A DNA stretch of 64,000 nucleotides from Spirochaetota bacterium (GTDB taxonomy: Bacteria; Spirochaetota; Brachyspiria; Brachyspirales; JACRPF01), in assembly GCA_016214035.1 (NCBI GenBank), contig JACRPF010000005.1, positions 186,001 to 250,000 on the forward strand, given 5' to 3'. The translations under genes and the position numbers were made by a program. The number at the start of each line of letters is the position of its first letter. Position 1 is the stretch's first letter. The notes under the pieces were generated by a model. That model was not told the origin of the DNA. It made no database searches and saw nothing but the letters and a program-made list of their open reading frames with translations. Shown in pieces: positions 54,741 to 58,362 of this stretch.

Positions 54741-54749
54741 TTTCTTATG

Positions 54750-54834
54750 TGCCCGGGGCCGGAATCGAACCGGCATGACCGTTACAGCCAACGGATTTTA
54801 AATCCGTTGCGTCTACCAATTTCGCCACCCGGGC
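54750..54834 (-). tRNA. tRNA-Leu (anticodon UAA)
   Basis: On the minus strand the 7-bp acceptor stem (GCCCGGG at 54834-54828 with CCCGGGC at 54757-54751) closes an 85-nt class II tRNA. It has a D-arm (AAATTGGTAGACGC), an anticodon stem-loop around TTTAAAA giving anticodon TAA, a long variable arm, and a T-arm GGTTCGATTCC. The discriminator is A (54750). CCA is not encoded, so it must be added after transcription. Confidence 0.95.
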
Positions 54835-57260: not shown

Positions 57261-58313
57261 TCAGTCTATGATGCCCGCGCCGATGACCTCATCCCCGTCG
57301 TAAAAGACGGCTGCCTGTCCCGGCGTCACCGCGCGTTCCGGTTCGTCAAAGACCACGCGTACCCTGTTTTCCTCCGGATACACCGTGCATCCCGCGCCTT
57401 CATGCGTTGAACGTATTTTCACCGTCATGTGTTTCGGCGATGACGCAGGCTTCGCTGCGATGTAATTCATATCGCTTGCGGTGAATCCGGCGCGGAACAG
57501 TGCCGTATCATTCCCGACGATGACGCTGTTCGTCTCCGCGTCGATGCGCACCACATAGAGCGGTGTCGCATGCGCGATGCCCAGCCCCCGCCGCTGGCCG
57601 ATGGTATAATTGGCTATGCCGTTATGTGTTCCGAGCACATTACCGTTCACATCTTTTATCTCGCCGCTCTTTCCCGGATCGCCGATGAGCACCTTGTAGT
57701 CGCCGCCGGCGAAATCCTGGCTGTCGGGTTTGTCGTGCGTGAATAGGCCGTATTCCTTCGCCTTCGCGCGTACCGCGTCCTTGCCCATGGCGCCGAGCGG
57801 GAAACATACGCGGGCGAGTATCTCCTGCGTGAGAAAACCGAGGAAGTACGACTGGTCGCGTTTTCCGTCGACCGCGCGTTTGAGGATGTATCGTCCGTCG
57901 GCGTTCTCGACACGCGCATAATGACCGGTGGCGAAGAGTGAAAAATCGATGCCGAGCTCGTGCGCGCGAGAGATGAGAAAGCCGAATTTCATCTGCGCAT
58001 TGCACCGCACGCACGGATTGGGTGTGCGCCCTCTGGCGTATTCGCTGCGGAAATAATCGAGCACGACGGCGCGGTATTCTTTTCTCAGATCGATGACATG
58101 GAACGGGATGCCGATGGTTTTCGATACGTTCTCAGCCGCGGCGATATCCTCTTCCTCGTCCGGTCCGTAGCAGGCGTTCTTGTTCTCGCCCCCCGGCAGA
58201 TCCCCGGAGTATATCTGCATGATGACGCCGATGACATCGTGTCCCTGCTCTTTGAGTATGAGTGCGGCTATCGACGAATCGACGCCGCCGGATAGTCCGA
58301 CTGCGATTTTCAT
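57261..58313 (-). CDS. mnmA: tRNA-specific 2-thiouridylase MnmA
   Basis: A 350-aa MnmA, which thiolates U34 of tRNA-Lys/Glu/Gln. It has the PP-loop GLSGGVDSS (residues 6-14), the catalytic Cys101 in NPCVRCN, and YTIGQRRGLGIA in the C-terminal domain. Where most MnmA proteins have a second catalytic Cys (DSQxICF-like), this one reads KPDSQDFAGGDYK with no Cys and is about three residues shorter. The nucleotide sequence supports this, and no frameshift is evident. Sulfur transfer may follow a different route, for example via Cys104. The ATG at 58313 begins the family sequence. The leader is very short and has no good SD. Confidence 0.9.
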   Translation of the reverse strand: MKIAVGLSGGVDSSIAALILKEQGHDVIGVIMQIYSGDLPGGENKNACYGPDEEEDIAAAENVSKTIGIPFHVIDLRKEYRAVVLDYFRSEYARGRTPNPCVRCNAQMKFGFLISRAHELGIDFSLFATGHYARVENADGRYILKRAVDGKRDQSYFLGFLTQEILARVCFPLGAMGKDAVRAKAKEYGLFTHDKPDSQDFAGGDYKVLIGDPGKSGEIKDVNGNVLGTHNGIANYTIGQRRGLGIAHATPLYVVRIDAETNSVIVGNDTALFRAGFTASDMNYIAAKPASSPKHMTVKIRSTHEGAGCTVYPEENRVRVVFDEPERAVTPGQAAVFYDGDEVIGAGIID

Positions 58314-58362
58314 AGTAGCGCTATAGTATAACATCTGGCACAGTGTTGCAAGCTCCGTTCAT

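Follow-up and report, generated by a model that had tools for sequence, protein, structure and literature searches.

The C-type of MnmA, the tRNA 2-thiouridine(34) synthase, with the cysteine arrangement CC-CxxC-C, was reportedly described from Thermus thermophilus by Shigi et al. in 2020. The published scheme sets this arrangement beside a D-type, C-DxxC-C, and a C-type of Campylobacter and Helicobacter that is without the CC region (PMC11784392). For the D-type enzyme of E. coli both a persulfide on Cys199 and a [4Fe-4S] cluster on Asp99, Cys102 and Cys199 have been argued, and the C199A mutant is inactive (PMC11784392). For E. coli there is disagreement over whether any MnmA requires a cluster (PMC11784392), and Ogunkola et al. 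are cited there as reporting that the enzyme of this species is cluster-independent. In Thermus, the C-type MnmA carries a [4Fe-4S] cluster and depends on anaerobic conditions (PMC11784392, PMC8584467), and in NcsA and TtuA three cysteines hold the cluster, leaving one iron free for sulfur (PMC10067955).

Here we describe an MnmA that fits neither published type, because the C-terminal cysteine required in both is missing. Its gene lies in the window, by which we mean the whole 64,000-nucleotide stretch of DNA analysed, in a Spirochaetota genome of 5.2 Mb that is 98% complete (G000). None of the papers searched describes an MnmA without the C-terminal cysteine, though there may be an earlier mention elsewhere. 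The features referred to below are the following.

57261..58313, minus strand: mnmA, tRNA 2-thiouridine(34) synthase of the variant type; 349 amino acids plus stop, the sole MnmA of the genome
58275..58292, minus strand: PP-loop SGGVDS, residues 8-13, the adenylation motif, intact
58140..58208, minus strand: loop residues 36-58 (SGDLPGGENKNACYGPDEEEDIA), standing where C-type MnmA has its CC motif
58170..58172, minus strand: Cys48 codon (TGC), invariant across variant proteins; proposed relocated third cluster ligand
58011..58013, minus strand: Cys101 codon, first cysteine of the CxxC, at the position of E. coli Asp99
58002..58004, minus strand: Cys104 codon, second cysteine of the CxxC, counterpart of E. 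coli Cys102
57711..57722, minus strand: S198-Q199-D200-F201, site of a two-residue deletion; the counterpart of E. coli Cys199 (Cys200 in C-type MnmA) is gone

The window protein is clearly an MnmA, matching curated models over their full length: it scores 387.8 bits against NF001138 (cut-off 284; positions 1-345 of 345) and 325 against TIGR00420 (cut-off 237; positions 1-351 of 351), and it contains the three Pfam domains tRNA_Me_trans, _M and _C. The reading frame is open throughout, with no internal stops and no frameshifts; the 349-residue product begins MKIAVGLSGGVDSS, and an alternative in-frame ATG lies at 58334. Ser8, Gly10, Asp12 and Ser13 of the PP-loop are invariant in alignment A1. 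Five cysteines are present, at positions 48, 101, 104, 170 and 309, the second and third of them in the CxxC motif TPNPCVRCN (residues 97-105). ARAGORN also placed a tRNA-Arg (CCG) at 57558-57650 on the plus strand, antisense within mnmA, which is probably a false positive.

The region of E. coli Cys199 (E. coli residue numbers are taken from PMC11784392) reads KPDSQDFAGGDYK in the window protein and contains no cysteine. Where homologues have SQ(D/E)(I/V)CF or STGICF, the window protein has SQDF, lacking two residues of which the cysteine is one; in an alignment to solved MnmA chains, KPDSQD--F stands against KKDSTGICF with a gap of two residues. The MnmA of the nearest relative (G001, 62% identical) carries the identical deletion, as does every MnmA found in the order, and therefore the deletion is not a sequencing error. 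The open reading frame, together with the same deletion in relatives, likewise ruled out a frameshift, a pseudogene or an assembly error. Thus the sequence-only reading was right that the Cys199 counterpart is absent without a frameshift and that the loop is shortened. It had also taken Cys101 for E. coli Cys102; Cys101 is indeed present, but it aligns with Asp99, and the true counterpart of Cys102 is Cys104. Moreover, Cys48, which is invariant in the subfamily described below, had been overlooked. In the solved-chain alignment, NPCVRCN of the window protein pairs with both NPDVMCN and NPCVMCN chains. The solved MnmAs include two recent sets of structures (PDB 9hln, 9i7r and 9hlv, 9hm3, 9hmj) that are near-identical in sequence, differ in having NPCVMCN or NPDVMCN, and look as if a D-type motif had been turned into a C-type one.

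Compared with C-type MnmA, the variant has the same fold, domain order, CxxC and PP-loop; it differs in having lost Cys200 together with a neighbouring residue, and where the C-type has an optional CC in the loop, the variant has a longer loop with one invariant cysteine (C-Y/F/L-x-P). With D-type MnmA (C-DxxC-C; E. coli, Bacillus, PDB 2deu and 9hlv) it shares the MnmA fold, the loop cysteine and the counterpart of Cys104, whereas Asp99 is replaced by Cys101 and Cys199 is absent. Foldseek gave a TM-score of 0.91 to E. coli MnmA with adenylated tRNA (2deu), followed by TtuA and other PP-loop enzymes. The tRNA thiolases TtuA, NcsA and TtcA use the same PP-loop chemistry and a three-cysteine [4Fe-4S] cluster with a free iron, as we propose for the variant. 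They are, however, a separate family, and their third cysteine comes after the CxxC, whereas the proposed third cysteine of the variant comes before it.

An alignment across phyla, which the sequence-only reading had suggested, was run, and a subfamily sharing the deletion does appear. In the window's order the deletion is found in every MnmA detected (29 of 31 genomes), the remaining two genomes, 85% complete, having no MnmA match. Variants were recruited with the motif [DE]xQ[DE]F..G[DE]Y at the DNA level, which contains none of Cys48, Cys101 and Cys104. An exact-motif count gave 72 of 393 Spirochaetota genomes, and a reversed-motif control had no match among the Spirochaetota matches listed. 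Scanning one-genome-per-species contigs with the motif gave at least 119 loci, with an MnmA-like protein in 99 of the 119 listed. Among the matches listed, the record titles of variant loci name Spirochaetota, Elusimicrobiota, Gastranaerophilales, Alphaproteobacteria, Bacteroidota, Aminicenantes/Saccharicenans, Dehalococcoidia, Sumerlaeota, WOR-3, Adiutrix and a Fusobacterium MAG. In all, MAGs labelled as about nine phyla besides Spirochaetota carry the variant, and because many bearers are MAGs, individual labels may err. Of 24 genomes in other groups that bear the variant, 22 have no other MnmA. Two MnmAs occur together in G182 (L225, L237), G402 (L311, L320) and G399 (L087, L305); these pairs consist of a variant (C-CxxC) and a C-type protein (CxxC-C) without the loop cysteine, so that each cell has complementary cysteine sets.

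The cysteine counts come from an alignment of 284 rows, in which MnmAs of the variant loci were joined by those of 75 additional Spirochaetota stretches and of Bacteroidota and Pseudomonadota genomes. CxxC, Cys200 and a loop cysteine occur together in 62 rows, plus L288, whose CxxC was read differently by the script; CxxC and Cys200 without the loop cysteine in 15; and DxxC, Cys200 and the loop cysteine in 68. The remaining 138 rows have CxxC without Cys200, and since the window protein is counted twice they represent 137 distinct proteins. All 138, the window protein included, belong to the C-CxxC subfamily (loop Cys48 and CxxC, no Cys200, SQDF). As read from the alignment, the usual persulfide cysteine is deleted throughout this subfamily, and no protein among the 137 lacks Cys48, Cys101 or Cys104. 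The loop cysteine is dispensable in C-type MnmA, being absent from 15 of 77 rows, and is absent from none of the variants. Cysteine occupies at least three of the four sites (loop, 101, 104 and 200) in each of the 284 rows, and the site that is dropped differs by MnmA type. Conservation reaches at least 97% in 53 columns of the 138 variant rows, among them those of the PP-loop, TPNPC..CN and TGHY; Gly6, Phe124, Asp125, Phe127 and Gly204 are specific to the variant. Asp200 is also invariant; the search motif itself accounts for part of the SQDF conservation.

Fisher's test on the CxxC rows gave p = 8e-8 with rows that are related by descent, and because of this relatedness we used a tree to test the loop cysteine. 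Trees were built after removing the three motif regions, which hold the trait columns. In a 119-row tree all variant rows fell on one side of one branch (SH-aLRT 67), adjoining C-type rows, with 1 trait change against 37 in shuffles. In a careful 60-row tree one variant row strayed, giving 2 changes, and a single-clade constraint was not rejected (p-AU 0.498). The variants fall within the C-type (CxxC-C) MnmAs. These trees allow a single origin of the variant, which they support weakly and do not prove. Among C-type rows, with 31 units of branch length, the loop cysteine changed about 10 times; the variant clade, with 26 units, shows 0 changes where 8.5 were expected (estimated Poisson probability of none, 2e-4). 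The loop cysteine became indispensable where Cys200 was lost. Because the swap is one evolutionary event at best, this covariation is without replication by independent origins.

The window protein was modelled with AlphaFold2 from a 63-row alignment, and a C-type protein, L274, from 53 rows as a control; mean pLDDT is 95 in each case. In the nucleotide-binding domain the two models have the same strands apart from two short ones predicted in the variant only, 47-49, which contains Cys48, and 200-202, at the deletion site. Because strands do not form singly and no other additional strand is available to either, the two probably pair, and Cys48 would then come to lie where Cys200 used to be. 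Judging from the two secondary-structure strings, Cys48 most likely lies beside the old Cys200 site.

The sequence-only reading had named a second MnmA with both cysteines as the counter-evidence to look for in the genome. A TIGR00420 profile search of G000 found no second MnmA, the next-best match having E = 2e-4 across 40 positions. Another U34 thiolase of the Ncs6/TtuA group was ruled out in G000, where PF01171 gave no match at E 0.001 and thus no protein of Ncs6, TtuA, TtcA or TilS type. MnmG is present (802.9 bits). The strongest cysteine desulfurase match of the genome is to PF00266 (Aminotran_5, 309.7 bits) and lies at L382:7177-9206 (G000:C17), where a NifU-like ORF is directly followed by this NifS-like cysteine desulfurase; these putative names come from reading the sequences together with the Aminotran_5 match. 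No stand-alone TusA was found in G000, its sole TusA domain sitting inside a 753-residue open frame. Separately, G000 has no recognisable tRNA-Ile lysidine synthetase (TilS): besides the PF01171 result, the best TIGR02432 match is 23 bits against a cut-off of 93.6, and named bacterial controls do match in these searches. Either there is an assembly gap or AUA is decoded some other way.

In the window, mnmA has as neighbours an AraC-type regulator and an unrelated binding protein. Comparison of the variant loci revealed no dedicated partner gene adjoining mnmA, and neighbours cluster by lineage only; L096 is the sole variant locus with nifS near mnmA, and no variant locus has nifU there. Apparent MnmA fusions in L026 and L378 are long open frames and probably not fusions, because their upstream parts are of low complexity without sign of a domain. 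Elsewhere in the window a tRNA-Leu (TAA) at 54749-54834 on the minus strand overlaps the tail of mechanically derived ORFs downstream of an acyl-CoA-synthetase-like gene, and the small ORFs overlapping it are probably not genes.

The persulfide proposed on Cys199 is impossible in the variant since Cys199 is absent, and the likeliest consequence is a different sulfur-transfer intermediate. Of the two that the sequence-only reading had offered, an iron-sulfur site would fit best, given the invariance of the CxxC and Cys48 across the 137 distinct proteins, and a single-cysteine route is unfit because the conserved cysteines number three, not one. The reading to which we incline, with somewhat better than even confidence, is that this is a working third, unnamed type of MnmA (C-CxxC), in which Cys48, Cys101 and Cys104 would hold a [4Fe-4S] cluster that delivers sulfur. 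Cys48, in the loop after the second strand, would have taken over the place of Cys200. The cluster is proposed by likeness to C-type MnmA, TtuA and NcsA, which use CxxC plus one cysteine. One iron would be left open; the PP-loop and ATP would activate U34 of tRNA Lys, Glu and Gln to an adenylate; the open iron would bind sulfide or persulfide sulfur from the NifS of G000; and the iron-bound sulfur would attack C2 of U34, yielding s2U34 and AMP. The Cys199 persulfide would have no role.

The strongest alternative would be a persulfide formed without any cluster on a relocated Cys48 (or Cys101), with Cys104 resolving the disulfide in the manner proposed for Cys199 and Cys102 of E. coli. The invariance of Cys48 and the model's hint that it lies near the old Cys200 site would suit such a route, as would the cluster independence that Ogunkola et al. 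are cited as reporting for E. coli MnmA (PMC11784392). Two cysteines would suffice for it, yet three are invariant; Asp stands at Cys101 in 0 of 138 variant rows, though throughout the D-type; and the variant is placed among C-type MnmAs, a type that in Thermus has a cluster. It leaves the three unvarying cysteines, including that at the Asp99 site, unexplained, and we regard it as doubtful. Alternatively, a cluster on Cys101 and Cys104 might have as its third ligand not Cys48 but, say, Asp200 or a partner protein's cysteine, and Cys48 would then be structural. Asp200 is invariant and an Asp ligand has been proposed for E. coli (PMC11784392), but C-type MnmAs often have Asp or Glu at this site without needing it as a ligand, the SQDF conservation owes something to the search motif, and it would take another cause to explain why Cys48 is strictly kept just where Cys200 has been lost; this makes the arrangement distinctly improbable. 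That thiolation has been lost, leaving an enzyme that only adenylates or binds tRNA or has gained another function, with s2U34 missing, would be in line with deletion of a residue held to be catalytic (C199A being inactive in E. coli), but is very improbable given the 53 conserved columns, the status of sole MnmA in G000 and in nearly all of the other genomes counted, and three cysteines that a decayed enzyme would not hold invariant.

Returning to the cluster on Cys48, Cys101 and Cys104, we put at about even the chance that the variant represents a third MnmA class, spread across many mostly anaerobic phyla, in which the C-terminal cysteine ligand has been exchanged for a loop cysteine upstream of the CxxC and the same s2U34 chemistry would proceed without Cys199; more generally, MnmA would have a pocket with four cysteine sites, any three being enough. 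Automatic annotation and 'catalytic residue' checks that look for Cys199 fail in a large set of bacteria, among them all Brachyspira examined and numerous gut MAGs. Moreover, the choice between a Cys199 persulfide and a [4Fe-4S] cluster in MnmA is an open dispute (PMC11784392), for which the variant, widespread and in most cases the sole MnmA of its genome, is a natural, ready-made test. If the variant thiolates U34, the Cys199 persulfide would be no general requirement, and the three remaining cysteines would show the cluster site.
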